From the NCBI GenBank assembly GCA_017475265.1, contig JAFVFY010000012.1, positions 1 through 51,378 of the forward strand: a DNA stretch of 51,378 nt, read 5' to 3'. The notes below the pieces were generated by a model. That model was not told the origin of the DNA and searched no databases. It saw only the letters and a program-made list of their open reading frames with translations. The stretch comes from Prevotella sp. Lineage in GTDB: Bacteria > Bacteroidota > Bacteroidia > Bacteroidales > Bacteroidaceae. Numbering within the stretch: the first letter of the stretch is position 1; the number at the start of each line of letters is the position of its first letter. A program made the translations under genes and the position numbers. Positions 11,317 through 48,322 of the stretch are shown here, one piece after another.

Positions 11317-11410
11317 GTCAACTCTCAACTCTCCGCTCGGCCCAACGGGACGCTTGCGGAGCCCGTCGGAGCAAGAACTCTCAATTCTCAATTCTCAATT
11401 CTCAACTCTC
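11317..11410 (+). repeat. Dispersed repeat family A, intergenic copy (heptamers plus GC-rich core)
   Basis: CTCAACT/CTCAATT heptamers flank a core beginning CCGCTCGGCCCAACGGGACG and ending CCCGTCGGAGCAAGAA. The core contains CTTGC/GCAAG and CTCCGC/GCGGAG stems. The same core occurs at 13387-13470 and 23120-23193, and a shorter variant at 13070-13140. Here it lies between the terminator and the end of the DUF4468 gene. Confidence 0.9.
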
Positions 11411-12166: not shown

Positions 12167-12205
12167 ATTACACTGATTTTTTATTTTAGTTTTAATCCGT
12201 TGTTT

Positions 12206-12943: not shown

Positions 12944-12958
12944 TATGTTGTGGAATTA

Positions 12959-13066
12959 TTATTTACGACTGGCTGGCGTAGGGTTCTCCCCTATTTTTCC
13001 TGCCATGATGTCTATGACCATTGAGATGTCGGACACATCAACTGTACCGTCGCTATTAACGTCAGC
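12959..13066 (-). other. Out-of-frame second half of the M6 protease dockerin
   Basis: One frame away from the open M6 frame, the minus strand encodes LTADVNSDGTVDVSDIS, then MVIDIMAGKIGENPTPASRK and a TAA at 12961-12959. This is a good match to the second repeat of a dockerin pair whose first repeat is in frame just upstream. Between them lies a heptamer array; adding one 7-base unit, or removing two, would join the two halves. Confidence 0.8.
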
Positions 13067-15378
13067 AGTGAGATTTGAGATTTGAGATTTGAGAGTTCTT
13101 GCTGCGCAAGCGTCCTTCGGCCGAGCGGAGCGTTGAGCGTGCCAGCCATGACGTCGATAATGGCAGCGATGTCGGCCACGTCAACTGTGCCGTCGCCATT
13201 CACATCGCCCAGTATGACGGGTGGTGTCTCATTCTCTCTGAGCACGAGCACCTCGTCGAGGAAGAATCGTTTCTCAGGGGTGAAACGGATGCATGCAACA
13301 CCTTTGCCAGTGATGGTTACCGTATAATCTTTCCATGAGAAGGAGTCCATGGAGAACTGGCTTTGGTCAAGGGTTGGGATGGAATCGAGAGTTGAGAGTT
13401 CTTGCTCCGACGGGCTCCGCAAGCGTCCCGTTGGGCCGAGCGGAGAGTTGAGAGTTGAGAGTTGAGGGTTATAGATGGCTAGTTTAAGTTGGTCACCGTC
13501 GGTGTTCCAGCTGGTGGCACGGAAGGTCAGCGTTGCCTTACCGTCGATGGTGAAGGGTGGGGTAGTGGCTTCACCTATTTTCGAACCATTGCCGAAGCGG
13601 GCGCACTGGTAGCCGGCGTAGGCTGCGTTGTATTCCCAACCTTTATTGTCGGTGGCGAACTTCGATGATGAACCGGCGATGGTCGTGCCCCATTTACCGT
13701 CGTTAGCTCCAGTGCCGGCGCATTTGTCGAACGACTCATAGAAGAGCGTGTCGCCACGGGCCACAATGGGGATGATGGTGTCGATGGGCTCCACAGGGTC
13801 AATGATCTCTGTCGTGTCGACCTCGATACGGTAGATGAAGTTCATCGACTTGTCGCTATTCTGCGTGATATTCAGGATGGCGCCCTGCATGAACTTCTTG
13901 CCCTTACTGTTCTTGTTGAAAAGGGTGGCGGCAGGCTTCGACGTGGAGGTGAGGCTGTCGTTCTTGTTATAGGGGTAGAGGTCGGTGCTGAGGGTCCGAT
14001 TCGTAAAGTAACCGTATGTACTCCAGTACTTTGAGTCATCCTCGTCGTCAGCATGGAAGATGGTGCAGCGTTGATGGTCGTTGGTCTTCGTATAGTCGCC
14101 ATCAGAATGAAGTATGTCCGACTGCGTCACTTTCGAGTTAGGCGTGTTTTGCTCCCAGATTTCCTTGTCGAAGTCCACATGTGTAATCATGAGTCCTTTT
14201 CCTGGCAGACTGGCGTCCCAATTGGTCTTCTGCCGGTTCTCTATGATGTAGAATTCGTCTTGGTGAGCATCGTTGTACATGATGAATGAACCGCCGTTCT
14301 CGCTGGTTGCCACAAGATTGTTCACGGTGTCGTTCTTTTCTGCCAGCACGGTAGGCTCAATCCATCCGGCCATCCACTTCTCGTAGGCTGAATATCCGGC
14401 AGGGCAGAAGGAATTGCCATTGTAGCTGCCTGCGTCCATAAGGTCGAACTCGCTCAGGCCAAACCATCCCTGATATGCTATGTCGTAGAAGTCAGGGTAG
14501 CCAAGACAATGGCTGAACTCATGGCAGAAGCACCCGATGCCAGTGATGGAATTGCCAGACAGCTCGTTGGCGCAGGCGTAGATGTCGATGGTCACGTCGT
14601 CCAGTTCAAGCGACATGTTGGTTTCTGACAGCCAGTACATGTGAGGCCAGATAGTGCTTGAGTTGCCACCGTCGGCCTCGCCCTTTCCGGCATAGACCAC
14701 GAACACCTGGTCTACCTGTCCGTCGCCGTCCCAGTCGTAGTCCTTGAAGTCTACCTCAGCATCGGCGGCCTTCACTGCCTCCACGATGAGCTCGTCAGGA
14801 TGCTTGTCGTTACCTGATGAGTCGTTACTGCCGTAGTAGGATGTAGATTTATTCGCAGTAAAGGGGCCTACGACATCGAATTTCAGCTCAAACTGTCCAT
14901 TGCTCTGTGCCTTGAAGTAGTCGGCCACGCTACCCTTAAATGACCCTGTGACATAGTTTTCCTTGTTCAGGATGTCATAGTACTTTGCCGAATCGTTGGC
15001 TGTCTGGAACTTCTTGTCGCTAAATTGCATAAGAATCACGATGCCCTTCTTCTGACCCGTATAGTGGGTTCTGTCACCGATATGTGATTTTTTCGGAGAG
15101 CGTAGGCGTTTAGTAGTAGGAGCACCGCTACGGCGGGCTATAGCGTGTGCCCGCATCTTCTTCATATCTGCCTTCACGGCAATGCCGTCGGGCTCTATGG
15201 TATATTGCTGGCCGTCTTCTGTCTGCCAGAAGTGAATATGCTCGTCACCTACCAGCTGGGCGCGCACTTCTGTGCCGTCCTTAAGAGTGAGCGTTTGCCA
15301 CTGGCCGCGCTTGGCGGGAATCGCCAGGACGATAAGAGAGGACAGTGCTAAAGATAAAGAAACGATAAGTCTTTTCAT
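13012..15378 (-). CDS. Secreted M6 family metalloprotease with dockerin-like tail (tail frameshifted)
   Basis: The 788-residue protein is of the immune-inhibitor-A type. Seen: a signal peptide (MKRLIVSLSLALSSLIVLA); a prodomain with WQTLTLKDGTEVRA; and the M6 zinc site HEFSHCLGYPD (H286, E287, H290, D296). A carbohydrate-binding-like beta module follows (about 545-720), interrupted by an in-frame family A repeat encoding LSTLNSPLGPTGRLRSPSEQ. Then comes one dockerin-like motif GDVNGDGTVDVADIAAIID. After a second repeat insertion the frame runs to a non-homologous end (SLLTLIATVQLMC), while the proper second dockerin half is out of frame (12959-13066). The promoter lies at 15422-15453. Expected action is degradation of extracellular proteins. 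The protease part is intact; the tail may be phase variable. Confidence 0.9.
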   Translation of the reverse strand: MKRLIVSLSLALSSLIVLAIPAKRGQWQTLTLKDGTEVRAQLVGDEHIHFWQTEDGQQYTIEPDGIAVKADMKKMRAHAIARRSGAPTTKRLRSPKKSHIGDRTHYTGQKKGIVILMQFSDKKFQTANDSAKYYDILNKENYVTGSFKGSVADYFKAQSNGQFELKFDVVGPFTANKSTSYYGSNDSSGNDKHPDELIVEAVKAADAEVDFKDYDWDGDGQVDQVFVVYAGKGEADGGNSSTIWPHMYWLSETNMSLELDDVTIDIYACANELSGNSITGIGCFCHEFSHCLGYPDFYDIAYQGWFGLSEFDLMDAGSYNGNSFCPAGYSAYEKWMAGWIEPTVLAEKNDTVNNLVATSENGGSFIMYNDAHQDEFYIIENRQKTNWDASLPGKGLMITHVDFDKEIWEQNTPNSKVTQSDILHSDGDYTKTNDHQRCTIFHADDEDDSKYWSTYGYFTNRTLSTDLYPYNKNDSLTSTSKPAATLFNKNSKGKKFMQGAILNITQNSDKSMNFIYRIEVDTTEIIDPVEPIDTIIPIVARGDTLFYESFDKCAGTGANDGKWGTTIAGSSSKFATDNKGWEYNAAYAGYQCARFGNGSKIGEATTPPFTIDGKATLTFRATSWNTDGDQLKLAIYNPQLSTLNSPLGPTGRLRSPSEQELSTLDSIPTLDQSQFSMDSFSWKDYTVTITGKGVACIRFTPEKRFFLDEVLVLRENETPPVILGDVNGDGTVDVADIAAIIDVMAGTLNAPLGRRTLAQQELSNLKSQISLLTLIATVQLMCPTSQWS
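13070..13140 (-). repeat. Family A variant with heptamer array inside the dockerin tail
   Basis: On the plus strand three GAGATTT units and one GAGAGTT (13070-13097) are followed by CTTGCTGCGCAAGCG and CGGCCGAGCGGAG, a shortened family A core. It sits between the two dockerin halves of the M6 protease and separates their frames. Confidence 0.85.
13387..13470 (-). repeat. Family A repeat inserted in frame in the M6 protease
   Basis: This carries the same core as 11317-11410, in the orientation of the gene, flanked by CTCAACT heptamers on the coding strand. It adds about 28 residues to the beta module without a stop. Confidence 0.9.
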
Positions 15379-15380
15379 TA

Positions 15381-15415
15381 ATTCTCAATTAATTCTCAAT
15401 TCTCAATTCTCAATT
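15381..15415 (-). repeat. Heptamer array in the M6 protease leader
   Basis: Four ATTCTCA units (one separated by three bases) lie between the promoter and the ATG of the M6 gene. Confidence 0.85.
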
Positions 15416-15421
15416 CCCCTG

Positions 15422-15453
15422 CAAAGGTAGTCATATTTATGCCAAATGACAAA
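15422..15453 (-). promoter_or_regulatory. Promoter of M6 protease gene
   Basis: On the minus strand: TTTG (15453-15450), 20 bases, TACCTTTG (15429-15422). This fits the Bacteroidetes consensus well. Confidence 0.82.
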
Positions 15454-15490
15454 ATTAATCGTTCGTTTTGGGAAAAAATAGGGAAAAGGC

Positions 15491-15521: not shown

Positions 15522-15536
15522 CAGCCAAACTCTAAT

Positions 15537-15567
<31 letters not shown>

Positions 15568-15572
15568 AAACT

Positions 15573-16238
15573 ATGGATACAATTACTGATAGCCCATTGA
15601 AGAACATCATCGTGGCTTGTGGCGGCGAGGAGCAACTTATTGACGAGCTGCTGGCCATGGAAAAGGGCGAGGCCGACGCTGCCACCCGGGGACAGATAGC
15701 CAGGCTTGCCTCGCACCTCAAGGAGCTGGCTCGCTCGCGCAATCTGAATGTTAGCATCGGCCCACGTGTGACTGAAGTTCGTCCGCAGGAACTGGAGTGC
15801 GACGTGGTGCGCTTCCAGAACAACAAGGAGAAGTGGGTGGCTCTTGTAGGTTTGCTCGACGGCTATCCCTATGAGATTTTCACTGGTCTGCAAGATGACG
15901 ACGAGGGCATCATGCTCCCCAAGTCGGTCACGAAGGGGAAAATCATCAAGCAAGTCAGTGCCGACGGAACAAAGCGCTACGACTTGCAGTTCACCAACAC
16001 CCGAGGCTACAAGGTCACCGTCGAGGGACTCTCGGAGAGGTTCAACCCTGAGTACTGGAACTATGCCAAGCTCATCAGCGGCGTACTGCGCTATCGCATG
16101 CCCATAGAAAACGTTATCAAGCTTGTCGCCTCGCTCCAGCTCAGTCACGATAGCATCAACACATGGAAGAACGGCGTGGAACGTGCCTTGAAGAAATACC
16201 TACCCGGCAACATCGATGCCGACGACCAAGACCTCTAA
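15573..16238 (+). CDS. Stand-alone protein like the C-terminal region of class II (NrdJ) ribonucleotide reductase
   Basis: The 221-residue protein starts MDTITDSPLKN. Its second half (ECDVVRFQNNKEKWVALVGL, DGYPYEIFTG, LPKSVTKGKIIK, then YKVTVEGLSERFNPEYWNYA and INTWKNGVERALKKY) reads like the C-terminal region of Bacteroidetes adenosylcobalamin-dependent ribonucleotide reductases, as I recall that family. No reductase catalytic barrel is encoded nearby. It could be a regulatory or accessory subunit encoded apart, or a remnant under selection. The upstream extension from TTG 15519 would encode the heptamer array (LSTLNSQLST) and is rejected. folB follows after another array. Confidence 0.6.
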   Translation: MDTITDSPLKNIIVACGGEEQLIDELLAMEKGEADAATRGQIARLASHLKELARSRNLNVSIGPRVTEVRPQELECDVVRFQNNKEKWVALVGLLDGYPYEIFTGLQDDDEGIMLPKSVTKGKIIKQVSADGTKRYDLQFTNTRGYKVTVEGLSERFNPEYWNYAKLISGVLRYRMPIENVIKLVASLQLSHDSINTWKNGVERALKKYLPGNIDADDQDL

Positions 16239-16240
16239 AT

Positions 16241-16289
16241 CTCAATTCTCAACTCTCAATTCTCAACTCTCAACTCTCAACCCTCAACT
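16241..16289 (+). repeat. Seven-unit heptamer array between NrdJ-tail-like gene and folB
   Basis: Exactly seven CTCAA(C/T)(T/C) units fill the gap between the upstream stop codon and the folB ATG at 16291, leaving no room for a conventional ribosome binding site. Confidence 0.92.
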
Positions 16290-16290
16290 C

Positions 16291-16647
16291 ATGACCATTT
16301 TCCTCGACGGCATCCGCCTCTATGCTTTTCACGGCGTTCTGGAGCAAGAGCGTCGCGTGGGAGGATGGTTCACCGTGAGCGTCCGTGTGCAGTATGACTT
16401 CAGTCGTGCCATGGAGACCGACAGCGTCAACGACACCCTCAATTATGCCGATGTGCTTCAGGTCGTAAAGCGCGAGATGGAACAGCCCTCACAGTTGCTT
16501 GAACATGTTGCCGGACGCATAGCACGCGCCGTCATCAGTGAGTTTCCTGGTGTGGAGGCCGTCAAGGTCACCTTAGTCAAGCAGAATCCCCCCATGGGGG
16601 CCAACTGCGACGGAGCAGGAGTCGATGTTGAGCTAATCAGAGCTTAA
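16291..16647 (+). CDS. folB: Dihydroneopterin aldolase
   Basis: FolB converts 7,8-dihydroneopterin to hydroxymethyl-dihydropterin and glycolaldehyde in folate synthesis. The 118-residue protein shows IFLDGIRLYAFHGVLEQERRVG (catalytic Glu in the loop), then the conserved LNYADVLQVVKREM, a core LLEHVAGRIARAV and the Lys of VTLVKQNPPMG. The chosen ATG gives the normal N-terminus MTIFLDG; an upstream start would only add translated heptamers (FSTLNSQLSTLNPQ). Its 3' end overlaps the convergent hemerythrin-LuxR gene by 11 bases. Confidence 0.93.
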   Translation: MTIFLDGIRLYAFHGVLEQERRVGGWFTVSVRVQYDFSRAMETDSVNDTLNYADVLQVVKREMEQPSQLLEHVAGRIARAVISEFPGVEAVKVTLVKQNPPMGANCDGAGVDVELIRA

Positions 16648-17596: not shown

Positions 17597-17603
17597 AACT
17601 CTA

Positions 17604-17631
17604 AACTATGAACTATGCACTATGAACTACT
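17604..17631 (-). repeat. Heptamer array (AACTATG type) in regulator leader
   Basis: AACTATG, AACTATG, CACTATG and AACTACT follow in tandem between the minus-strand promoter (17651-17681) and the ATG at 17596. Confidence 0.85.
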
Positions 17632-22370: not shown

Positions 22371-24572
22371 TTGACTAAAATAATCATTATCGCCCTATAC
22401 ACACTCATCGTGGTGTGTATAGGGTTTGCCACCATCATAGAGAAATACCACGGCACCGCCTTTGTTAGTGAACATATCTACGGCGCTTGGTGGTTTTCGA
22501 CACTGTGGGCTGTGCTCACGGTGGTGGCTTGTGCCTATATGCTGAAGCAGCATCTGTACAGGCGGTTGGCAGTATTCCTGCTCCATGCATCGTTCGTGGT
22601 CATTCTGGCCGGCGCACTTGTTACCCACCTCTTTGCCAAGCAAGGCACCGTCAGGCTCCGTACTGGCATCGCTGAGATTAACTACGTTGACAAAGAAGGT
22701 AAGGTGGAAAGGTTTCCATTCTCTCTGACGCTGAAAGAATTCCGCATAGTGAACTATCCAGGTACCGATGCGCCACTCGACTACCAGAGCGTCGTAGAAC
22801 ATTCTCGGACAGATGTTCCGACGCCCTCTAACGTCCCTTGGAGAGGGGTTAGGGATGAGGCAGTTCTCGTATCCATGAACAATGTAGGCAACATTGACGG
22901 CTACCGTTTGTTCCAGCAGAGCTACGACACAGACGGAGAGGGCGTAACGCTGGGTGTGAGCTACGACCCTTGGGGCATCGCCATCACCTATACAGGCTAC
23001 CTCCTGCTGCTCATCGGCATTTTCGCTACCCTGCTGTCACGAAAGACCCAGATGCGTGCGCTCTATCGGAAGGCTGTCCTGATGATCATGCTATTGGTGA
23101 GCATTCATGTCAGTGCAGAAAATTCTCAATTCTCCGCTCGGCCCAACGGGACGCTTGCGGAGCCCGTCGGAGCAAGAATTCTCAATTCTCAATTTGTCCT
23201 GGACAAGGACATTGCTCATCGTATGGGCACCATCCAAGTGCTCTACAACAACCGTATCTGTCCGCTGAACACCGTGGCTACCGACTTCGTTATGAAGATG
23301 ACTGGCAGCGCCTCGTGGCATGGTTATTCCGCCGACGAGGTTTTCTTCAGTTGGATGATTTACTACTCGCCGTGGGAGAAGGAACTGCTGCTGAACAACA
23401 AAAGAAAAGGAGCCGACGAAAGAAATGCCGTTGCAGAGATGTTCTACAACGGACAGTTCACCAAGATTTTCCCCTATAAGCTCACCTCAGACCCCTCTCC
23501 CAGTAACCACTCCCCTCTCCTTGGGAGAGGGGTCGGGGGTGAGGTTATCTGGTTCTCCCCCGGCTCCCAGATTCTCCCCCGCGAGATTCCTGTCAAGGAA
23601 CAGTTCTTCATCAAGCAGTCAATGGACTTCCTGACGGAAGCTATCGTGACAGGACAAAAAGACAGGGCTTTTGAAATCATTGCGAAGATAAAGCTCTTCC
23701 AGCGCGATATGATTGGCGACCTGCTACCCAGCGAAAGCACCACGAAAGCGGAATTGTTCTACAACTCGCTGAGAAGTCAGAAATGGCCAGTATTCCTTTC
23801 ATTGACCCTCAGCATACTACTCTGCGTTTTAATGCTTATGTCTGTTAAGGGTAAATGGCTCAGGTTGTTAAACCTGTCCTTTGTCACCCTTCTCATGGCT
23901 TATGTTACCTTGCAGCTCGGTTTGCGCTGGTGGCTTAGCGGTCACATCCCTGTGAGCAATGGTCCTGAGACGATGCTGTTTATGGCGTGGGTGTTGCTCC
24001 TGTTCTCTCTCTCAACTCTTAACTCTAAGCTCTCAACAATAATCACAGCTTTCGCTCCGCTCATAAGCTCCTTCTGTCTGCTGGTAGCCATGCTTGGTGG
24101 TAGCAGCTCACAAATCTCCCCGCTCATGCCTGTGCTCCAGTCTCCGCTGCTCTCTGTCCACGTGATGACGGTGATGTGTGCCTATGCCCTCTTTGCCCTG
24201 CAACTGCTGTTAGGCATATACGCTCTTCTTGGCCACCGCTTTTCACTTTTCACTATTCACTTTTCACTAGAAAGAGCGACTGCTCTTTCGCAACTATTGC
24301 TCTATCCTGCCGTGTTCTTGCTCACCATCGGCATTTTCCTCGGAGCCGTCTGGGCTAATGTGTCCTGGGGCAATTACTGGTCGTGGGACCCCAAGGAGAC
24401 CTGGGCGCTCATCACCCTCATGGTCTATGCCGTCCCTTTCCACAGTACCTCCATCCCCATGTTCCGCCGTCCACTCGTTTACCACCTCTATATGGTCTGT
24501 GCCTTTCTCTCCGTCGTTATCACCTATTTCGGTGTCAACTACCTACTCGGAGGAATGCACAGTTATGCCTAG
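22371..24572 (+). CDS. Fused cytochrome c biogenesis protein CcsBA (ResB + CcsA)
   Basis: The 733-residue membrane protein starts at TTG 22371, giving MTKIIIIALYTLIVVCIGFATII. The N-terminal ResB/CcsB part has four transmembrane segments with a large periplasmic domain. The C-terminal CcsA part (from about residue 490) carries the WWD heme-handling motif in WANVSWGNYWSWDPKETWALI (about 660-680) and conserved histidines in LSVHVMTV and VPFHSTS. System II proteins export heme and attach it to CxxCH motifs, fitting the di-heme protein just upstream. Five small dispersed repeats lie inside the gene, all in frame (22823-22860, 23120-23193, 23481-23545, 24008-24036, 24240-24267), which makes it longer than a compact version would be. 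They fall between membrane segments. Confidence 0.9.
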   Translation: MTKIIIIALYTLIVVCIGFATIIEKYHGTAFVSEHIYGAWWFSTLWAVLTVVACAYMLKQHLYRRLAVFLLHASFVVILAGALVTHLFAKQGTVRLRTGIAEINYVDKEGKVERFPFSLTLKEFRIVNYPGTDAPLDYQSVVEHSRTDVPTPSNVPWRGVRDEAVLVSMNNVGNIDGYRLFQQSYDTDGEGVTLGVSYDPWGIAITYTGYLLLLIGIFATLLSRKTQMRALYRKAVLMIMLLVSIHVSAENSQFSARPNGTLAEPVGARILNSQFVLDKDIAHRMGTIQVLYNNRICPLNTVATDFVMKMTGSASWHGYSADEVFFSWMIYYSPWEKELLLNNKRKGADERNAVAEMFYNGQFTKIFPYKLTSDPSPSNHSPLLGRGVGGEVIWFSPGSQILPREIPVKEQFFIKQSMDFLTEAIVTGQKDRAFEIIAKIKLFQRDMIGDLLPSESTTKAELFYNSLRSQKWPVFLSLTLSILLCVLMLMSVKGKWLRLLNLSFVTLLMAYVTLQLGLRWWLSGHIPVSNGPETMLFMAWVLLLFSLSTLNSKLSTIITAFAPLISSFCLLVAMLGGSSSQISPLMPVLQSPLLSVHVMTVMCAYALFALQLLLGIYALLGHRFSLFTIHFSLERATALSQLLLYPAVFLLTIGIFLGAVWANVSWGNYWSWDPKETWALITLMVYAVPFHSTSIPMFRRPLVYHLYMVCAFLSVVITYFGVNYLLGGMHSYA
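22823..22860 (+). repeat. GAGAGGGG-type repeat in frame in ccsBA
   Basis: CCCTCTAACGTCCCTTGG, then GAGAGGGGTTAGGGATGAGG: a common form of the CCCTCTCC/GGAGAGGGG family. It is translated as TPSNVPWRGVRDEA. Confidence 0.8.
23120..23193 (+). repeat. Family A repeat in frame in ccsBA
   Basis: The core is identical to the copy at 11317-11410, flanked by ATTCTCA units. It is translated as NSQFSARPNGTLAEPVGARI just after a signal-like membrane segment. Confidence 0.92.
23481..23545 (+). repeat. CCCCTCTCC/GGAGAGGGG palindrome in frame in ccsBA
   Basis: CCCCTCTCC (23512-23520) pairs with GGAGAGGGG (23524-23532), inside outer CTCACCTCA...GGGGTGAGG sequence. It is translated as DPSPSNHSPLLGRGVGGE. Confidence 0.88.
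24008..24036 (+). repeat. CTCAACT heptamers in frame in ccsBA
   Basis: Four imperfect CTCAACT-type units, translated as LSTLNSKLST, in a loop between membrane helices. Confidence 0.75.
24240..24267 (+). repeat. TTTTCAC heptamers in frame in ccsBA
   Basis: TTTTCAC, TTTTCAC, TATTCAC and TTTTCAC in tandem, translated as FSLFTIHFSL. This is a different unit from the family A arrays but the same 7-base period. Confidence 0.85.
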
Positions 24573-24892: not shown

Positions 24893-25171
24893 TTGCCCCT
24901 TAAAACTGTTTCGTTTTAGTCGGTTTTTAACGAAAAGGGTGAGGAGGTAGTACAAACCAGCCGAGGAGGTAGTACAAACCCGCTGCGGAGGTAGTACAAA
25001 CCCGCTGCGGAGGGTGAACAAAACCAGTGCTTTTCTACTACCAACCCGCACACTTACTACCATTAGACTGGCAGGTTGGGTCCAAAAAGGCACCAACGGA
25101 CACCTCGAAGACCCTTTTTCGGGGTATTTTCCAACCGCGAAAAACGCCAGTTTTAAACGAAATAGGGGCAA
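24893..25171. repeat. 279-base element with imperfect inverted ends
   Basis: The left end TTGCCCCTTAAAACTGTTTC and the complement of the right end TTGCCCCTATTTCGTTTAAA continue as similar TTTCGTTT...GG(C)GTTTTT sequence for about 50 bases. Inside, GGTAGTACAAACCCGC on the left is mirrored by CTACTACCAACCCGCACAC on the right. It could fold into one long imperfect hairpin: a MITE-like element or a structured RNA. Confidence 0.55.
24944..25025 (+). repeat. 22-base tandem repeat, about 3.7 units
   Basis: GAGGTAGTACAAACC begins at 24944, 24966 and 24988, and a degenerate GAGGGTGAACAAAACC at 25010. The period is exactly 22 bases, about two helical turns. Confidence 0.9.
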
Positions 25172-28679: not shown

Positions 28680-29579
28680 ATGAAACCGATTAGAAACGAA
28701 GTGAAAATAGCCCTGGTGGGCATTGTGGCCATCATCATCCTCTACTTTGGGATGCAGTTCCTCAAGGGTCTCACCATGGTATCTTCCGACAACAATTACT
28801 ATGCCCACTTCAAGGATGTGAGCGGTTTGTCGGCCTCCAGTCCCGTCTATGCCAATGGCTACCGCGTGGGCGTGGTGGAGGATATCGACTATGACTACTC
28901 ACGGCCCAACAATGTCGTGGCTACTATCGGTCTGGACAGTAAGATGAAGTTGCCTCGTGGCACACGTGCCGAGATTACCAGCGACCTGCTGGGCAACGTA
29001 AAGCTGGAGCTGCGTTTTGGAGACAACCCCCTTGACCTGCTGCAGCGTGGCGACACCATCGAAGGTGGTGCACAGGAGGGGCTGATGAGCAAGGCTGGTG
29101 CCATGGTGCCACAGATAGAGCTGATGCTGCCGAAGCTTGACTCCATCCTCACGTCGGTGAACGCGCTGCTCGCCGACCCTGCCATACGCAATTCGCTGGG
29201 AAACATTGAGGACATCACCGCCAACCTCACCACTACCACCCGTCAGCTGAACCAGCTCTCTGCACAGTTGAATCATCAGGTGCCGCAGATGCTGGTCAAG
29301 GTTGACACCATGTTGGAGAACACCAACGGACTGACTCGACAGTTCAACGACATCAACCTTCCGCAGACCATGCAGCGTGTGGATAAAACTATGGCTAATC
29401 TGGAGCAGACCACCGCCGCCATGAACAGCCGTGAGGGAACGTTGGGAATGCTCTTGCACGATGCAGGACTCTATCGCAATCTTAATGCCACGATGAACAG
29501 CGCCGACTCGCTGCTCATCGACCTCAAGCAGCACCCCAAACGCTACGTCCACTTCTCCCTCTTCGGCAGAAAGAACTAG
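28680..29579 (+). CDS. MCE/MlaD family protein
   Basis: The 299-residue protein has one N-terminal membrane anchor (VKIALVGIVAIIILYFGMQFL) and an MCE domain (YYAHFKDVSGLSASSPVYANGYRVGVV with AEITSDLLGNVKLELRF). A helical C-terminal half follows (IEDITANLTTTTRQLNQLSA...MANLEQTTAAM). In other Gram-negatives MlaD is the periplasmic subunit of a phospholipid-transport ABC system; the ATPase and permease partners are not adjacent here. It follows glmS by 48 bases. Confidence 0.9.
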   Translation: MKPIRNEVKIALVGIVAIIILYFGMQFLKGLTMVSSDNNYYAHFKDVSGLSASSPVYANGYRVGVVEDIDYDYSRPNNVVATIGLDSKMKLPRGTRAEITSDLLGNVKLELRFGDNPLDLLQRGDTIEGGAQEGLMSKAGAMVPQIELMLPKLDSILTSVNALLADPAIRNSLGNIEDITANLTTTTRQLNQLSAQLNHQVPQMLVKVDTMLENTNGLTRQFNDINLPQTMQRVDKTMANLEQTTAAMNSREGTLGMLLHDAGLYRNLNATMNSADSLLIDLKQHPKRYVHFSLFGRKN

Positions 29580-29585
29580 GTTGTT

Positions 29586-29620
29586 GGTTATCGGTTATTG
29601 GTTATTGTTTATTGTTTATT
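29586..29620 (+). repeat. GGTTATT heptamer array before sufS
   Basis: GGTTATC, GGTTATT, GGTTATT, GTTTATT and GTTTATT in tandem fill the gap between the MCE gene stop and the sufS ATG at 29626. Confidence 0.9.
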
Positions 29621-29625
29621 GGACA

Positions 29626-38317: not shown

Positions 38318-40120
38318 TTACGAATTTGCCTTTTTTGCCTCAAATGTGTCGCACATTTCTTCCAAGACCTGTTTGAGCTCTTTGCTGCTACCCGTCATTT
38401 TCCACACCTTCTTAAGTATTTCTGAACTCAGCTTTGATATATAGGAAGGTTTGACGCCCATCATGTTTGCCGTTTCTTTCACCCTGACTGGATAGCACAG
38501 CAGCAAACAGATGCGGCTACCGTTTATACCCATCAATGATTTGTTGCTGTTTACGAAGCGGTACAGTTCTGGCCTCTCACTGCTTACGAGGAGCATAATC
38601 CTTTCCCATTCGCTGTCTGTTATTTTTTCCCTTCTTTCTGCAAGTTGCTTAATGAGAGTATATGTTTCGGACATCATGTTATCTGTATAGCCATGATTCT
38701 TGCCTAATGATGAAGTATGTCTGCATTTAAATATGGCAATTTTGGCCTTAAGCCTTTCCGTTTCTTTCTCTTTAGTGACTATCAGATGCTTCAGCTCTGC
38801 CTCCTGCTTCCTCCATTGTTCTTCATTGAAGACATTCATCATGTCTCTTTCCCTTAGCAGGGCGAGGTTCTCCATCTGGTTTTCAAGGGTTTTTTGCTCT
38901 CTGGTGAGCATATCAAGTTTTTCAACAGCTTCATTATACTGTCGGTGTTCTTCCCTCCTTTTTTGGAAGATGCGGTGCATTATTATGGCAGAAGCAACGC
39001 AAACACCTATGGTTAAGAATGTAAGGATAAGTGATATGGTCTTAGCTGCCTCTGAGCGTTGTTCTGCTATCAGAGCTGCTTTCTGATGCCAGCCATAGTT
39101 ATACATCTGGTGCATACGCTCTACGTCGTGTGTGGTTTTTTGTGCGTAAAGCGAATCATTCATTTCGTAGCTATACAGTGCATATTTCGCTGATGAGTCA
39201 GGTTGCCCAGTCTGCTGAAACAATAGAGCCAGTCCCCTTGAAGCTGAGTTTTGACAATTGTAGTCTCTGCCTTCATTGAGTTCTTTCCTGAAGAAATAAC
39301 ATGCTGAATCGAATTCTTGTACAGACAGATGATACATGCCTCTCAAGTAGTAATATGCCTCACGCCCTGTTTCGATGCTCCCGTCCTCCGTGAAATATCC
39401 AGATGCCGACTCATAAAATTCCATACATTTCCTGGCTTCTTCTAAACGTCCGCATTTCAGATAGCTTCCAATTGCCAATGAAGAAAAAGCTGCCGCATCC
39501 TGAATATAGCCCCTGTCGCACAAGCCTCTTTTCACTTCGTCATAGACTTTCAGCACACATTCCGGCCTGTTAGTCCTTTCGTATGCGAGTGTCTTGTAAG
39601 CCAGCATGTTGAGGGCAATGATGGTATCGCACCCTTTCAGTGCAGCCGAAACAGCCCTTTCAAGATACTCCAGGTTGTCATCCATCAAGTTCTGATCATA
39701 GAATATGTCTGCCATCTGCGCATATACCCGGCACAGCTGCCTGTAGTTACAGTCTGTAGCGGTGGTGTCTGCACGGTCTATGGCATCGTGGTAGGCGGCG
39801 AGGGCTGCGGGTGCCTCGCCGCGGTCGGCATGGGTGCGGCCGAGGAGGTAGTGGGCCTCCATCTGCTCGTTGGGCGTGCCGTGGCGGTCGAAGTAGTCGG
39901 CGAGGGCCTGGGCCAAGGAGTCGTCGGTGAGGACGCTGTCGGCCCGGTTCAAGGCCTGGAGGGCGGCCAGCTGCTGCTGCATGCGCTCGTGGCGGCCAGG
40001 GTCACAGGCCGTGAGCAGTAGCGCTACGCTAAATGACAAATGATAAATGATAAATCGGAGGAATCCCGGCAGACGGAGCCAACGGGTGATTGAAGATGGA
40101 ATGATGAGGAGTCTTGTCAT
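38318..40120 (-). CDS. TPR lipoprotein/membrane regulator with coiled coil and C-terminal helix-turn-helix-like region
   Basis: The 600-residue protein has a lipobox-like N-terminus (SFSVALLLTACDPG), several TPR repeats (about 60-340; MEAHYLLGRTHADRGEAPAALAAYHDA), one membrane segment (about 352-375; ISLILTFLTIGVCVASAIIM) and a long coiled coil (about 380-460). The cytoplasmic C-terminus contains VKETANMMGVKPSYISKLSSEIL, which reads as a DNA-binding helix-turn-helix. I infer a one-component sensor-regulator. Its N-terminal 100 residues are nearly identical to those of the gene at 48389 in inverted orientation, while the C-termini differ. A heptamer array (40031-40058) forms the start of the signal peptide. 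It precedes the DUF3244/T9SS/protease series, its likely target. Confidence 0.82.
   Translation of the reverse strand: MTRLLIIPSSITRWLRLPGFLRFIIYHLSFSVALLLTACDPGRHERMQQQLAALQALNRADSVLTDDSLAQALADYFDRHGTPNEQMEAHYLLGRTHADRGEAPAALAAYHDAIDRADTTATDCNYRQLCRVYAQMADIFYDQNLMDDNLEYLERAVSAALKGCDTIIALNMLAYKTLAYERTNRPECVLKVYDEVKRGLCDRGYIQDAAAFSSLAIGSYLKCGRLEEARKCMEFYESASGYFTEDGSIETGREAYYYLRGMYHLSVQEFDSACYFFRKELNEGRDYNCQNSASRGLALLFQQTGQPDSSAKYALYSYEMNDSLYAQKTTHDVERMHQMYNYGWHQKAALIAEQRSEAAKTISLILTFLTIGVCVASAIIMHRIFQKRREEHRQYNEAVEKLDMLTREQKTLENQMENLALLRERDMMNVFNEEQWRKQEAELKHLIVTKEKETERLKAKIAIFKCRHTSSLGKNHGYTDNMMSETYTLIKQLAERREKITDSEWERIMLLVSSERPELYRFVNSNKSLMGINGSRICLLLCYPVRVKETANMMGVKPSYISKLSSEILKKVWKMTGSSKELKQVLEEMCDTFEAKKANS
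40031..40058 (-). repeat. AAATGAT heptamer array in the signal peptide of the TPR regulator
   Basis: AAATGAC, AAATGAT, AAATGAT and AAATCGG in tandem on the plus strand; on the coding strand they read FIIYHLSFS, immediately before the lipobox. Confidence 0.88.
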
Positions 40121-43200: not shown

Positions 43201-46200
43201 CAACCGCGACCAGTCGTCATACAACGGTGCAACCTCCACCCTGCCCGTCCTCAACCTGGCCTACTACCCCAACGAGCGCGGCCCCTACAACTTGACCACA
43301 CGCCTCAACGCAGACGGCTCGCTACAAGACCCCGCATCGAAGTGGGGAGGCATGATGCGCCGTCTGGAGACCACTGACTTCGAGCAGGCCAATATAGAAT
43401 ATGTGGAGTTCTGGATGCTCGACCCCTTTATCTACACCCGCAAAGACGGAACCGCAAGCCGTCACAGCGGCGAACTCTACATCAACCTGGGAGAAATCTC
43501 CGAGGACGTGTTGCGCGACGGCAAGAAGTTCTACGAGAGCGGCATGCCCGTCGACGGTACCAGCAGTTTTGAGACCACACAGTGGGGAAAGATTCCACGC
43601 CAGGCCACGGAGACTTACGCCTTCGCCACCACCAGCGGTTCTCGCGAGCTGCAGGACGTGGGACTCAACGGATTGACCGACGAGGAAGAGCAGACCTTTG
43701 AGGCCTATACCAACTGGCTCAACCAGATAGGCGGCATCGTTACCTCCAACGACAGCATCCTCGAAGCATGGCGCAATGACCCCGCCGGCGATGACTACCA
43801 CTATTACCGAGGCTCTGACTTCGATGCCGAGCAGAAGAGCATCATGGACCGCTACAAGCGCATTAACAACCCGCAGGGCAACTCGCCTTCCAGCGATAAC
43901 CAGACAGAGACCTACGACACCTCCTACAAGACCGGCCCCGACGTGGAGGATATCAATCAGGACTACACGCTCAACGAGTATGAGCGTTACTATCAGTATC
44001 GCATACCTATCAGCGACCAAGAGCTCCAGGACTACAATCGGGGACAGAAGAGCGACAAGTCGTACATCGTTGACCACCGCGACTACAACGCCAAGCTGCG
44101 CAACGGTGACTCGTGCACCGTGCGTTGGTACCAGTACCGCATACCGCTTGCCAAGTATGACTCGAAGCACGGCAGCATCAACGACTTCACCTCCATCCGT
44201 TTCATGCGTATGTTCCTCACCGGCTTCGAAGAGGACATCGTGCTGCGCTTCGGTGCACTCGACCTCGTGCGCGGCACTTGGCGACAGTACAAGCAGAGCC
44301 TGCAGACAGGTGCCAGCGCAGAGACGGGTGTGCTGGAGATGAGTGCTGTCAACGTGGAGGAGAACACCGAGCGCCAGCCCGTGGCTTACGTCTTGCCACC
44401 AGGCATCACCCGCGTCAGCGACCCCAACCAGCCACAGCTCACCGAGGAGAACGAACAAGCACTCTGCCTTATCGTGAAGAACCTCAGCCAGAACGAGTCG
44501 AAGGCCGTCTACAAGAATACCAACCTGAACCTGCGGCAGTACAACCACCTGCAGATGTTCGTACACGCCAACCACCTCGTGCCCAACAGCACCCAGCTCG
44601 AGGACAACCAACTGGCAGTGTTCATCCGCCTGGGTAGCGACTACAAGGGCAACTACTACGAATACCTCATCCCCCTGAAGCTCACCCCCGAGGGACGCTA
44701 CCGCTGGGGCGTGCCCTCAGACCGCATCCTCGTCTGGCCAGAGGAGAACATGATTGATATAGACCTCAACATCTTCACCGAACTGAAGAGGAAGCGCAAC
44801 CTGGCACGTGGCGAAGGTTTGGCTAGCTACACCTCGCTCTACACCGACTACGACCCCAACAAGCCGAACAACAAGATAGGCATCATGGGTAACCCCTCGT
44901 TAGGAGAGGTCAAGACCATGATTATCGGCGTGCGTAACCTCAGCAACACGCTCAAGAGCGGCGAGATATGGGTAAACGAGCTGCGACTGCAAGACCCCGT
45001 CATAGATGGTGGTTGGGCAGCATCAGGAGCCATGGCCCTCAAGCTGAGCGACATCGGAACCATCAATGTCAGTGGACGGTACATGACCGACGGCTTCGGT
45101 GGATTGGAGGAGACCGTGCTGCAGCGCTCCACCGAGACGCAGAAGTCCTACGCCATTACGGCAAATGTCGAGTTGGGTAAGTTCTTCCCCGATAAGGCGA
45201 AGGTCAGTGCACCACTCTATTACTCGTACAGCAAGGATATCGTCAGCCCGAAGTACAACCCGCTCGACACCGATATGGAGCTTGACAATGCCCTGGATGC
45301 CGCCCTCAACAAGCAGGAGCACGACAGCATAGAGTCTATTGCCGTCACCAAGCGCATTAACAGCAACTTCTCGCTCTCCAACATGCGCGTGGACATCAAG
45401 AACAAGAAGTTCCCGCTGCCTATAGACCCTGCGAACTTCTCTATCTCCTACGCCCACTCCCACTCGCAAAACACGGGAAAGACCACCGTCTACGACAAAC
45501 GCGATGACTGGAGGGCTGTACTCAACTATGCCTATTCGCCGGTCTACAAGACCTGGGAACCGTTCAATAAGTCGAAGAAGTCAAAGGACACCCAGAAAAC
45601 CCAAAAAACCCAGAAAACCCAGCAGACCCAGAAAACCCAATCTTCCAATAGTAAGTGGTCACAGTTCACACAGGCCTTCGGCATCAACTATCTGCCACAG
45701 AACCTCTCCATCAACAGCGAGTGGCACCGCTCTTACTCGGAGCTGCAGGAGCGTGACCTGCAGAACACGGAGAACCCGTCACTGCCCCTGACCTTCTCCG
45801 AGCAGTTCCTCTGGAACCGTGAGCTCTCCCTGCGTTGGGACCTCACCAAGAACCTGCACATGAACTTCTCGTCGGCTACACGAGCAGAGATTGAGGAACC
45901 CTATACACCCGTGAACAAAGACCTCTACCCCGATGCCTATGAGGCTTGGAAAGACTCCGTGTGGACCAGTCTCAAACACTGGGGAACGCCGCTCGACTAC
46001 CACCAGAACTTCTCTGCCAGCTATCAGCCCCCACTCGATAAGATTCCCATCTTCGACTGGATCAAGGCCGATGCCAAGTATACCTCCTCCTATTCCTGGC
46101 AGCGAGGCACAGAGCTTGATGACGGTACTTCGCTTGGTAACACCATCGCCAACAACCGTAGCGTTGACATCAATGGTACTATCAACCTCGAAACGCTCTA

Positions 46201-48322
46201 TAACCACATCCCCTTCCTGAAGAAGACCAACGAGCGGTTCAAGCAGAACAAGAAGAAGGACGACAAAAAGACGGAAAAGAAGCCCAAGCAGTCAAAGAAG
46301 GAAAAGGACGCTGAAAGAGGGGAAGAAGGAGGGAATGACAAAAAGGCATCCGCCGACAAGGCCAAGCAAAAGGAAAAGGATGAGCTGCCAAAGAACAAGA
46401 ACACCTTCCAGAAGGAGATAACGCTCTACCCTGACTCCACGATAGAAATACAGCATGGCAAGAAGTCGAAGAGACTCCTCATTTCGGCCAAGAACAAGGA
46501 TGGAAAACAGGTCAAGGTGAAGTGGAAAACCGTTGACGAGAACAAGATTAAGGTATGGCTTCCCAAGGAGAAAACAAAGAAGGAGAAGAAACAGAAAGAC
46601 AAAGGCAAAACTGCCCTTCCCGACTCGCTTCAGGCTGTCAACGACTCGCTGCTGGCTGCCACTGATTCCTTGTTGCAGCCCAAAGACTCCTTGCTCGCAA
46701 AGAATCAAATGCCGAAAAAGGTAAAAGGCAAAATATCAACACCCGACTCTGAACTCTCAACTCTCAACTCACCCCTCGAACTCAAGCTCTCCGTCACCCC
46801 GAAAGCACCACTTGAGGACAAGCTGTGGTACAACATCGCCCAGCAGACAGCACGCTTCCTGATGATGGTACGCAACGTCAATGTCACCTACCGCAACCAG
46901 CGCAGCATGGCACTACCGGGATTCATGCCTAACATAGGCGACATGTTCGGACAGCGCACGGGAGGTGTCATGGCGCCCGGACTAGGCTTTGCCTTCGGAC
47001 TCACTGGCGACGAATACATCGACAAGGCACAGAGAAACGGATGGCTCCTCGGTTACAATCCAGAGGACAGCACCACCACGCGCAACACCTCGGCCGCCAC
47101 CACCTCGGCCACCGAGGACCTGCAGATACGCGCCACCCTCGAACCCCTTCGTGACCTCAAGATCGACCTCAACGCATCGCGTACTACTAACCAGACACGC
47201 TCCGTGCAGTTCATGTACGAAGGATCGCCCACCACCTACGGCGGCACCTTCACCATGACCACCATTTCCATAGGCAGTGCCCTTGAAGGCATGGGCGATG
47301 CCAACAACGGCTACCAGTCGAACACCTTCGACCGCTTCTGCGCCAGCATCGAAGGCTACCGAGACCGCGTGCAGGCACAATATCCATCGGGAGAACGGGC
47401 ACAGAGCAACTCTCAACCCTCAACCCTCAACCCTGTAGACCCCTATTCCGCTGACGTGCTCATACCGGCCTTCCTCAACACATACACCCTTAGCGGAGGT
47501 TCCTCGCTCAACATCTTCCCGGCACTCTCACGAATCCTCCCCAACTGGACCTTCAAATACTCCGGACTGGCAAAACTGCCGTGGATACAAGACCACTTCA
47601 AGAGCGTCAATATCAATCACTCTTACAAGAGCGTTTACGCCGTAGGCTCTTACGCTAGCTACAGCTCATGGGTGGCCTTCAATGGCGACCTCGGCTACAT
47701 ACAGGCTGCCGACGGCTCCTATACACCATCTTCCCGCTACAACATCTCCACCGTAAGCATCACCGAGTCCTTCTCACCGTTGCTTGGACTCGATGTCACC
47801 TTCAACAACAACCTCACCGCCAAGGTAGAATATAAGACCACACGCGGACTGAACCTCTCCATGACCAGCGTGCAAATCAACGAAGCCCTCAGCAAAGACT
47901 GGGTCATCGGGCTGGGCTACAAAATCAACGACTTTAACATCTTCGGGTCTGGCAGCAACCGGGAGGCGAAGGGCAACAAGAAAGGCAAGAAAGGCAACAA
48001 TGACCAGCAGGATGCTCAGAAAACCCAGAAAACCCAAAAGACCCAGAAAGGCCAGGTCAACCACGACCTGAACATGCGTGTTGACTTCTCCCTACGCAAG
48101 CAGGCCGCCATCACCCGCGACATCCGCACAGGTGTCTCCTCCGCCAGCAGTGGCAACTCTGCACTCAAAATCTCGCTCCGTGCCGACTACACCCTTTCCC
48201 GGTATCTCACACTGACCGCCTACTACGACCGGCAGACCAACACACCGCTCCTCTCATCGAGCAGCTATCCCACCACTACCCACGACTTCGGATTCTCCAT
48301 GCGCTTCTCCCTGACGAGGTAA
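40259..48322 (+). CDS. sprA: SprA/Sov, outer-membrane translocon of the type IX secretion system
   Basis: This 2687-residue giant barrel protein is the channel through which T9SS substrates leave the cell. Seen: a signal peptide (MKRFAYILILLLGITALAMP); a proline/arginine-rich segment; the SprA N-terminal motifs APIVMTPEEYMLWSEKQARS with FDFTDLQFDLGPAEKIFGPG and VKTQGTAELKVGATLKSIDN; two halves with EYVEFWMLDPFIY-type and ELRLQDPVIDGGWAASGAM motifs; and a C-terminal strand (TTHDFGFSMRFSLTR). It is longer than Flavobacterium SprA (about 2400 residues). The excess includes Lys-rich stretches (46205-46600), 9-base tandem repeats encoding TQK units (45591-45641, 48013-48060) and two CTCAACT arrays. 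Its substrate with a sorting tail is encoded at 36487. Confidence 0.95.
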   Translation: MKRFAYILILLLGITALAMPPQDDVTRSGGRPAQRNRTVGGGDDTPDGLARGARPARGARPVRGAIQGDSAKNQPKAQPKAQPRSLKVEDETIPDSLLNARWRIQPTAPILYHDLDSSALDLRMPENIRQEAVYNDSLNLYFIGSILSGQSTGSGGKGQGSSSTIGTNYLNAPIVMTPEEYMLWSEKQARSLYFRQKDLENFKSKGENKFDFTDLQFDLGPAEKIFGPGGVRVKTQGTAELKVGATLKSIDNPSLPINNRKTTAFDFDEKINLSVNGKVGDKVNMNLNYNTDATFDFDTKNIKLKYDGKEDEMIKLVEAGNVTFPSNNSLVHGASSLFGIRTDWQFGKLKLQTVLSQKKSTSKSVSSKGGTQTTPYEIDVADYEENRHFFLSHFFREMYDRAMSTLPNITTGVQINRVEVWVTNKTGTTSNSRNIIAFSDLGENRRIKNTKRWSPTGMNVPSNLANDEYSTLVSVIDTASRSMEAVTAELESWDHFVGGEDYEKLSSSRLLNSTEYTVNTSLGFISLKTGLQTDQVLAVAYEYTYGGRTYQVGEFASDMTNTNNCLFVKALKNTSNNPYQANWDLMMKNVYYLASSVEQTEFRMDIKYQSDTTGTYLTYLPEESLKSVTLLKMMGLDRLDANMKTHSNGQFDFVSGYTVANGRIFLPSAEPFGDYLRNYLNEKGMGHVADTYCFDELYDSTKTVARQIAEKDKYLLTGQYKGNSANVISLGAYNVPRGSVVVTAGGVTLTEGSDYSVDYSAGEVTILNQSILDAGTNVQVSLEDNTTYGMQRKTMLGLNWEYDFNKNFTLGGTVMHLSEQAITTKVTMGEEPLNNTIWGLNVNWKQDSQWLTNVLDKLPLLHCTQPSSLTFTGEFAQLIAGKASGTQDNASYIDDFESAKDLYDVSDPKAWVLSSVPPMFPNYNDKTNVSSGYDRARLAWYTVDPIFTRRSSSLTPAHIKSDLEQLSNHYVREVYVRELYPNRDQSSYNGATSTLPVLNLAYYPNERGPYNLTTRLNADGSLQDPASKWGGMMRRLETTDFEQANIEYVEFWMLDPFIYTRKDGTASRHSGELYINLGEISEDVLRDGKKFYESGMPVDGTSSFETTQWGKIPRQATETYAFATTSGSRELQDVGLNGLTDEEEQTFEAYTNWLNQIGGIVTSNDSILEAWRNDPAGDDYHYYRGSDFDAEQKSIMDRYKRINNPQGNSPSSDNQTETYDTSYKTGPDVEDINQDYTLNEYERYYQYRIPISDQELQDYNRGQKSDKSYIVDHRDYNAKLRNGDSCTVRWYQYRIPLAKYDSKHGSINDFTSIRFMRMFLTGFEEDIVLRFGALDLVRGTWRQYKQSLQTGASAETGVLEMSAVNVEENTERQPVAYVLPPGITRVSDPNQPQLTEENEQALCLIVKNLSQNESKAVYKNTNLNLRQYNHLQMFVHANHLVPNSTQLEDNQLAVFIRLGSDYKGNYYEYLIPLKLTPEGRYRWGVPSDRILVWPEENMIDIDLNIFTELKRKRNLARGEGLASYTSLYTDYDPNKPNNKIGIMGNPSLGEVKTMIIGVRNLSNTLKSGEIWVNELRLQDPVIDGGWAASGAMALKLSDIGTINVSGRYMTDGFGGLEETVLQRSTETQKSYAITANVELGKFFPDKAKVSAPLYYSYSKDIVSPKYNPLDTDMELDNALDAALNKQEHDSIESIAVTKRINSNFSLSNMRVDIKNKKFPLPIDPANFSISYAHSHSQNTGKTTVYDKRDDWRAVLNYAYSPVYKTWEPFNKSKKSKDTQKTQKTQKTQQTQKTQSSNSKWSQFTQAFGINYLPQNLSINSEWHRSYSELQERDLQNTENPSLPLTFSEQFLWNRELSLRWDLTKNLHMNFSSATRAEIEEPYTPVNKDLYPDAYEAWKDSVWTSLKHWGTPLDYHQNFSASYQPPLDKIPIFDWIKADAKYTSSYSWQRGTELDDGTSLGNTIANNRSVDINGTINLETLYNHIPFLKKTNERFKQNKKKDDKKTEKKPKQSKKEKDAERGEEGGNDKKASADKAKQKEKDELPKNKNTFQKEITLYPDSTIEIQHGKKSKRLLISAKNKDGKQVKVKWKTVDENKIKVWLPKEKTKKEKKQKDKGKTALPDSLQAVNDSLLAATDSLLQPKDSLLAKNQMPKKVKGKISTPDSELSTLNSPLELKLSVTPKAPLEDKLWYNIAQQTARFLMMVRNVNVTYRNQRSMALPGFMPNIGDMFGQRTGGVMAPGLGFAFGLTGDEYIDKAQRNGWLLGYNPEDSTTTRNTSAATTSATEDLQIRATLEPLRDLKIDLNASRTTNQTRSVQFMYEGSPTTYGGTFTMTTISIGSALEGMGDANNGYQSNTFDRFCASIEGYRDRVQAQYPSGERAQSNSQPSTLNPVDPYSADVLIPAFLNTYTLSGGSSLNIFPALSRILPNWTFKYSGLAKLPWIQDHFKSVNINHSYKSVYAVGSYASYSSWVAFNGDLGYIQAADGSYTPSSRYNISTVSITESFSPLLGLDVTFNNNLTAKVEYKTTRGLNLSMTSVQINEALSKDWVIGLGYKINDFNIFGSGSNREAKGNKKGKKGNNDQQDAQKTQKTQKTQKGQVNHDLNMRVDFSLRKQAAITRDIRTGVSSASSGNSALKISLRADYTLSRYLTLTAYYDRQTNTPLLSSSSYPTTTHDFGFSMRFSLTR
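45591..45641 (+). repeat. 9-base tandem repeat in sprA (TQK units)
   Basis: About five ACCCAGAAA-type units encode TQKTQKTQKTQQTQKTQ. The period is a multiple of three, so copy changes keep the frame. Confidence 0.9.
46751..46770 (+). repeat. CTCAACT array in frame in sprA
   Basis: Nearly three units, encoding ELSTLNS in a linker after the Lys-rich segment. Confidence 0.75.
47406..47433 (+). repeat. CAACCCT heptamers in frame in sprA
   Basis: CAACTCT followed by three CAACCCT units, encoding NSQPSTLNP. Confidence 0.85.
48013..48060 (+). repeat. Second 9-base tandem repeat in sprA
   Basis: The units are the same type as 45591-45641 (AAACCCAGA), encoding AQKTQKTQKTQKGQ. They sit in a predicted loop between late barrel strands. 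Confidence 0.88.

Follow-up and report, generated by a model that had tools for sequence, protein, structure and literature searches.

The window analysed here is the whole of contig JAFVFY010000012.1 (51,378 nucleotides; contig C4 of genome G000) from a Prevotella sp. assembly, GCA_017475265.1, which comprises 4.75 Mb in 135 contigs and is 99% complete. It carries an M6 family protease gene, ccsBA, sufS and sprA, and these genes and the spaces between them are interspersed with tandem arrays of 7-nucleotide (nt) units and with a short hairpin element, referred to below as the core. Among the gene names given in a preliminary description of the window, Pfam matches uphold SprA, peptidase M6 and a class-V aminotransferase, but not the TPR label; ccsBA and sufS are kept as names from that description.

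Heptamer arrays in the window and beyond

Arrays in the window were detected with Tandem Repeats Finder (TRF) and by counting exact runs (at least nine matches at lag 7), with the expectation taken from 20 first-order Markov resamples. There are 15 exact runs of 7-bp period compared with 0.25 expected, and the arrays of the preliminary description were recovered at their positions. Periods 5 and 8 yield no runs, period 6 yields one and period 9 yields six. The features are listed below by position and strand; G395 is the one related genome with a full-length ccsBA match, and open reading frame is abbreviated as ORF.

11318-11410 (+): intergenic composite of a CTCAACT array, a core (11334-11375) and a CTCAATT array (TRF, exact runs)
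13069-13130 (-): CTCAAAT array (13069-13094) and short core (about 13098-13130) in the M6 protease ORF (Pfam Peptidase_M6)
13401-13470 (-): core (13401-13442) and CTCAACT array (13443-13470) in the M6 protease ORF
15377-15416 (+): intergenic AATTCTC array (TRF)
15528-15567 (+): CTCAACT array upstream of the likely start of the following gene (TRF)
16233-16290 (+): mixed CTCAACT/CTCAATT array directly ahead of an ATG at 16291 and contained as well in a longer ORF from 16216
17604-17629 (+): intergenic AACTATG array (TRF)
22809-22856 (+): extra GC-rich block of 48 bp in ccsBA, missing in the G395 ortholog (ortholog alignment)
23121-23183 (+): extra composite of 63 bp in ccsBA, with CTCAATT units on both sides of a core (23135-23176), missing in G395
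23476-23548 (+): long GC-rich inverted repeat in ccsBA, 51 bp of which (23481-23531) are extra relative to G395
24009-24037 (+): CTCAACT-type array in ccsBA that exceeds the G395 ortholog by two residues
24239-24268 (+): TTTTCAC array in ccsBA, with unrelated sequence at the same place in the G395 ortholog
29579-29622 (+): GGTTATT array at the gene junction ahead of sufS (TRF)
29949-29964 (+): short CTCAACT array in sufS (TRF, exact runs)
30614-30646 (+): ATGTTCA array (PMFNVQCSMFNG) in sufS (exact runs; Pfam Aminotran_5)
40030-40055 (-): AAATGAT array at the N-terminal end (or in the leader) of ORF 38318-40120 (TRF)
46746-46770 (+): CTCAACT array in sprA, within a segment whose length varies among seven relatives (TRF; Pfam SprA_N)
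47407-47434 (+): CAACCCT array in sprA, in a segment prone to gaps among the seven relatives (TRF)

The sprA comparisons involve the loci L046-L048, L051, L058, L065 and L066. A 9-bp repeat elsewhere in sprA (45590-45639; ACCCAGAAA) encodes TQKTQKTQK and is missing in all of them.

The excess of period 7 extends to the rest of the genome. In a sample of 709,751 bp (the window and 40 fetched stretches, 15% of 4.75 Mb), there are 129 period-7 runs of at least ten matches, compared with 1.0 expected from second-order resamples (three per stretch), while periods 5, 6, 8 and 9 yield 0, 11, 10 and 20 runs, respectively. The predominance of 7 over 5, 6 and 8 that the preliminary description had proposed is thus confirmed, and the observation is real and strong. 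Longer periods are in excess too, with 83 runs of period 14, 95 of period 21 and 71 of period 22. The first two can derive from period 7; period 22 is a separate repeat that does not. A 22-bp unit occurs three times downstream of ccsBA in the window (24943-25013), and set B of the relatives, described below, has 146 runs of this period compared with 2 expected. The units do not form a random set; the commonest among the 129 arrays are AACTCTC (21 arrays), AATTCTC and AAATCTC (13 each) and AATGGTC (12).

The named relatives are uncultured Prevotella, mostly from the rumen, together with Prevotella communis E15-14 and Xylanibacter brevis ATCC 19188. Set A consists of 48 loci (609 kb) picked by gene and not by repeat, and has 29 period-7 runs compared with 2 expected. 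Set B consists of 128 stretches (1.99 Mb), including the 48 loci of set A and many others chosen for arrays or cores, and has 222 compared with 3. Period 7 exceeds periods 5, 6, 8 and 10 in each set, and periods 14, 21 and 22 are likewise in excess. The arrays are not universal among relatives: none was found in the samples of G016, G040, G048 and the sister pair G003/G042 (93-98% identical), the last covering 99.6 kb. The pattern CTCAACTCTCAACT is present in 12 of 40 genomes searched, including G000 and all from one genus, and in none of 16 genomes from other families of the same order. A reversed-pattern control is uninformative for CTCAACT, as its reverse is its own rotation. In the three-contig genome G010, one region of about 194 kb (G010:C3:1488792-1682833) holds 35 of the 50 listed CTCAACTCTCAACT matches and is perhaps an acquired island, and the matches in G008 show a strand imbalance (7 forward, 39 reverse).

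The number of units differs between relatives. P. communis and a relative that is 84% identical differ by 7 nt in an AATTATC array and by about 28 nt in a TCTTACW array, and the sister species G101 and G157 differ by 7 and 8 nt.

A simple purpose-made gene finder called 474 genes in the G000 sample (86% coding). By these calls, 65 of the 129 arrays lie wholly in genes, 11 cross a gene edge and 53 are intergenic. The density of intergenic arrays is about five times that of genic arrays (53 in about 97 kb compared with 65 in about 613 kb).

The preliminary description also claimed that every CTCAACT array inside a gene of the window takes the stop-free orientation. For this type of unit the claim holds well: all six runs (at least ten matches) in window ORFs are stop-free in the gene sense, one of which (16261) may be in a leader, as are 37 of 38 in-gene arrays of six families in the G000 sample (AACTCTC, AATTCTC, AAATCTC, AAACCTC, AAAACTC and AACCCTC). 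This is weak evidence, because an open frame already demands it: a TGA every 7 bases hits all frames within 21 bases, so that the orientation of a perfect array of three units is forced. Among the 65 in-gene arrays, 52 have a unit that is stop-free in the gene sense and has a stop in the antisense, four are stop-free both ways, and nine, all shorter than 21 nt, have a stop in the gene sense. The 23 arrays of at least 21 nt are all stop-free in the gene sense, with a stop in the antisense unit.

Nor is the orientation a rule. In-gene AATGGTC arrays lie four times in one orientation and six times in the other, and in four genes (one in L013, two in L027 and one in L030) CATTGAC arrays lying antisense have CATTCAC where a TGA would be in-frame, as in the reading ATT GAC CAT TCA CCA TTG ACC ATT GAC CAT TCA. 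This change of TGA to TCA at every third unit shows a reading-frame filter at work, and it accounts for part of the 21-nt periodicity. The sites (L027:2449-2487, L027:4310-4350, L030:504-523 and L013:10346-10362) encode LTIDHSP-like repeats.

A hairpin core within the arrays

Three cores in the window (starting at 11334, 13401 and 23135) are identical over 42 nt, and a short form lies near 13098. The consensus, CGCTCGGC..G.GACGCTT..GCAAG, spans about 30-42 nt; it begins with CGCTCGG, ends with GCAAG or GAAAG, and contains GCGTC on one strand in a non-terminal position. With at most two mismatches, the core has 37 matches in G000, 112 in G374, 64 in G220, 60 in G340, 57 in G216 and 7-37 in five other genomes, compared with 0-4 per genome for the reversed pattern. 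Of 398 genomes in the genus, 18, including G000, contain a longer core pattern (at most three mismatches); among other genomes of the order, two of 294 have one match each, with a mismatch.

The 29 distinct 42-nt forms of the core contain three covarying column pairs (9-15, 23-39 and 28-34), compared with an average of 0.27, and never more than two, in 100 column shuffles. This points to a hairpin that is kept for its shape.

The sequences on either side of the core match each other. In 44 copies (others were left out if no G[CGA]AAG end was present within 40 nt or if they lay close to the end of a stretch), the 7-nt flanks to the left and right are 59.4% identical, compared with 42.1% in shuffled pairs (sd 2.1; highest of 500 shuffles, 49.0%), and the identity peaks at the in-phase 7-nt register. 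The flanking word varies by copy and by species (AACTCTC, AATGGTC, AACTATG, AATTCAT and others, some of 8 nt). With the boundary defined by the G[CGA]AAG end, the two positions 3' of the core are A in 42 and 41 of the 44 copies.

Close relatives may also differ in having the core. The sister species G101 and G157 are 90-94% identical in aligned parts, and the presence of the core differs at four places over a 37-kb alignment of contigs, each pair of which was fetched because one member held a core or a Y1_Tnp gene. One difference is a clean 32 bp with no target-site duplication, adjoining a Y1-type transposase gene and GTAG..CTAC palindromes; a second is an 83-bp block that includes heptamers and part of a second core; the other two sit inside 7-nt arrays common to both species. 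The core is a dispersed element in its own right, located inside the arrays, and sister species differ as to its presence. The preliminary description was right that hairpins exist, and it overlooked the core as a distinct dispersed element, its extent over many species and the replacement of whole protein loops described below.

A 7-bp target-site duplication was considered and rejected: the matching flanks are explained by the arrays, and the sole array-free empty site has no duplication. In L192 and L193 (from G101 and G157), a Y1-type transposase gene, the end of which was read by eye, is followed by GTAG..CTAC palindromes, and this is likely a unit of a repetitive extragenic palindromic (REP) element and its REP-associated tyrosine transposase (RAYT).

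In-frame inserts in ccsBA and thrC

Ortholog comparison shows directly what the preliminary description had proposed from one genome, that dispersed 7-bp arrays and hairpins lie in-frame within genes. For ccsBA, the one full-length match among 12 genomes searched (G395, 81% identical) is without three blocks of the window gene, of 48, 63 and 51 bp, and the frames are open in both genes; the block lengths are multiples of three because the alignment was protein-guided, by codon. The blocks may be insertions in the window gene or losses in G395, so that insertion is not proved.

The threonine synthase gene (thrC) allows a broader comparison, of G000, 19 named loci and seven other genomes (27 in all). 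The loci were taken as best matches only, from the 339 of 398 genomes with a match, plus the 19 named loci. Duplicates were left out, namely L094 (the genome of the window) and L099, L101, L102 and L105, which are 100% identical over 3.9-4.4 kb to L087, L083, L082 and L081, respectively. In the protein alignment, 2246 of 2304 internal gap cells (97%) fall in two loops. Loop 1 is 11-46 residues long and has a different sequence in each of the 27 genomes; loop 2 is 12-47 residues long and takes 26 forms. All 27 frames are open through both loops.

Inspection of the loop DNA by eye reveals heptamer arrays in several species (CTCACCT, CTCAACT, AACACCC, CTTGCCC and GAGAGGA), as well as arrays with units of 8 or 9 nt, short hairpins and two palindromes of larger size; in some loops, which are short, no repeat is visible. 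The same kind of sequence may occupy either loop. A hairpin with heptamer arms is in loop 2 in G000, and a similar one is in loop 1 of G088 and, tandemly duplicated, in loop 1 of G113; a CCCC-rich palindrome is in loop 1 in L092 and in loop 2 in G088. In an AlphaFold2 model of ThrC (mean predicted local distance difference test score, pLDDT, 71; from 17 sequences), both inserts (residues 129-145 and 263-280) come out as coil, flanked by a helix and a strand, and their pLDDT is below 50.

Palindromes inside genes are not confined to these two cases. Long inverted repeats in the G000 sample number 14 in genes, 22 between genes and six at gene edges. Three in-gene inverted repeats (L029:2447-2520, L029:3289-3382 and L036:10881-10954) have a common centre, GGGGCTGCG or near it, and heptamer-like arms. 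At one thrC locus, L090:10001-11260 (RUG13388), 79 bp near the start are missing relative to L079, as are 134 bp of the gene upstream, and in both cases the gene is possibly broken or the assembly at fault.

Origin and spread of the inserts

Two kinds of unstable DNA probably act jointly: a REP-like hairpin that moves as single-stranded DNA, and 7-nt arrays that change by slippage, both filtered for reading frame by selection. Arrays would lengthen, shorten and switch unit by slipped-strand synthesis, as the unit-number differences suggest, while the core and other palindromes would relocate about the genome. The core would insert directly 5' of AA, very often in an array, without duplication to judge from the clean empty site, and in one case appears to have travelled as a block with heptamers. 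Single-strand 'peel-and-paste' transposition of the REP/IS200 type would fit such movement. Survivors in genes would be those insertions that are in-frame, stop-free and in a loop dispensable to the fold. Arrays may pass this filter easily, yielding one heptapeptide in any frame, and antisense arrays may pass it if every third TGA is altered. Filtered in this way for frame, stops and loops, core and array insertions would overwrite the loops of core enzymes with repeat-coded peptides, species by species. A benefit to the host is not needed for this explanation.

Several observations weigh against it. Firstly, folding of three cores as single-stranded DNA is no better than that of shuffles (z -1.2, 0.4 and 0.0; the thrC hairpin, at z -6.6, does fold better), and the initially drawn fold partly fails, since columns 2-39 pair in 20 and columns 20-28 in 22 of the 29 forms. 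Secondly, there is only one array-free empty site, either state may be the older at each of the four G101/G157 differences, and the rate of difference is biased upward because the contigs were chosen by core or Y1_Tnp; within arrays, a 7-bp duplication is indistinguishable from no duplication plus slippage. Thirdly, Y1_Tnp was not found (E 1e-3) in four of 16 genomes (three 71-84% complete, one 90%), including the core-rich G374 (84%) and G186 (71%), and the pattern used detected no core at any of 27 Y1_Tnp loci; a loop-length variant outside that pattern adjoins a Y1_Tnp gene in G157 and not in its sister G101. Fourthly, most of the CTCAACT-type arrays listed have no core beside them, and the explanation does not cover the spread of one unit to many sites. 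Finally, other segments of the ThrC model also have a pLDDT below 50.

If hairpin movement and slippage are indeed at work, their action suggests that selfish DNA can rewrite the loops of core enzymes in many species of a group that is common in gut and rumen. The thrC loops of the 27 genomes and the sisters G101 and G157 provide material for testing hairpin movement and the growth of 7-nt repeats, and the question bears on why bacterial simple repeats favour 7 as a long unit. There is also a warning for annotation and modelling of Prevotella proteins, in which such inserts are not to be read as domain features.

A more elaborate version, possible though doubtful, is a two-part selfish system, in which the single-strand-mobile hairpin would bring along and seed its own landing pad, a 7-nt array, and leave it in place after precise excision. 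Array and hairpin would then spread jointly, and a length of 7 nt would suit them, as three units are stop-free in every frame on one strand, which would open coding DNA to them. Were this true, protein loops throughout the genus would record its activity.

Slippage of the polymerase on heptanucleotides alone, with no mobile element, is unlikely to suffice. It would liken these genomes to prokaryotes rich in long simple sequence repeats (LSSRs), where most of the genomes examined have heptanucleotides as their most abundant long class (Mrazek 2007, cited in PMC4679880). As described in parts of PMC4679880 and PMC4692102, the heptanucleotide LSSRs, or short tandemly repeated repetitive (STRR) sequences, of cyanobacteria, Xanthomonas and Nostoc (GGGAATC) and Beggiatoaceae (TAACTGA) are also 7-nt tandem units at hundreds of loci with a patchy distribution, and the excess of 7-nt arrays over chance and over other short units is found here too. 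The variation in unit number between relatives also agrees with slippage. However, those repeats are mainly intergenic in the same accounts, whereas half of the arrays here (65 of 129) are wholly in predicted genes, with many units and a resident dispersed hairpin. Slippage alone also does not account for the recurrence of AACTCTC at unrelated places (21 of 129 arrays, with about 1170 possible unit classes, 16384/14) or for cores and palindromes that come and go as whole units, and it cannot bring a new palindromic block of 48 to 63 bp into a gene.

Contingency loci, in which gain or loss of units shifts the frame and switches genes on or off (phase variation), are a poor prospect. Seven is not divisible by three, arrays are present in genes and leaders, and their unit numbers vary, all as such loci would require; yet the genes affected encode enzymes expected to be always needed (threonine synthase, sufS and a purB-like gene named by eye), and 27 of 27 thrC frames are open over both loops. 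It is also hard to credit that the inserts serve a function, such as that of flexible linkers with some property of the peptide under selection. Their location in modelled loops and their occurrence in many species would agree with a function, but their sequence, length and type vary by species, and arrays are denser between genes than within them.

A telomerase-like reverse transcriptase of the DRT10 kind, which copies an RNA template into cDNA of tandem repeats (of 9 nt in one system, according to PMC12632851) and might seed arrays genome-wide at broken ends, is very improbable, since despite four RVT_1 matches in G000 none was found (E 1e-3) in the array-rich G008 and G018 (both 90% complete), and the many units per genome would demand many templates. 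With Y1_Tnp and RVT_1 not found in some core-rich or array-rich genomes, neither is a required partner on present evidence, and both links were dropped for want of a consistent association with arrays or core. An integron attC idea (the motif RYYYAAC resembles ACTCAAC) was dropped as well, as other units are without the motif; no search aimed at an integrase was made.

Palindromic elements in coding genes of Rickettsia (RPEs) were reportedly described by Ogata in 2000. The parallel to RPEs drawn in the preliminary description is apt, as is that to STRRs: the palindromes here are in-frame in unrelated coding genes (ccsBA, thrC and the 14 in-gene inverted repeats in 710 kb). RPEs, too, are described in excerpts of PMC6649704 and PMC3733652 as in-frame in unrelated genes, and are considered selfish DNA there. 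They differ in that heptamer arrays take part here, several hairpin arms being heptamer arrays, and in that two thrC loops vary in nearly every species compared. Inverted repeats are also found in coding genes of Nematomorpha mitochondria, where template switching is proposed to keep the arms complementary (PMC6649704, in part); there, both arms encode conserved amino acids, while here the arms are in variable loops.

The core itself resembles REPs in being a 30-42 nt palindrome of high copy number (7-112 matches in ten genomes) with covarying columns. REPs are characterised in part of PMC3733652 as short hairpins of high copy number, many intergenic and some in ORFs, and those tagged with CGTC seem to be without a dedicated flanking transposase; passages in the literature place REPs and RPEs within ORFs, perhaps in flexible linkers or loops. 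Unlike the GTAG class of REP/RAYT, the core is without terminal GTAG or CGTC, lies between matching 7-nt words that are mostly arrays, and has no conserved RAYT link that could be found. In comparison with IS200/IS605, there is one clean empty site without duplication and the AA 3' of the core, and a cognate HUH transposase was not encountered. Among the matches listed for Prevotella and Bacteroidetes, no description of such arrays and hairpins appears in the titles and abstract openings. The kinds of element are known; what appears to be new is the partnership of array and hairpin, together with how far loops have turned over in this group. G000 also contains in-gene palindromes with GTAG/CTAC-like feet that are REP-like (L019:8469-8533, L028:3948-4034 and L034:2095-2159; for example, GTAGTAGCCCACGCTTCCCAGCGTGGG).

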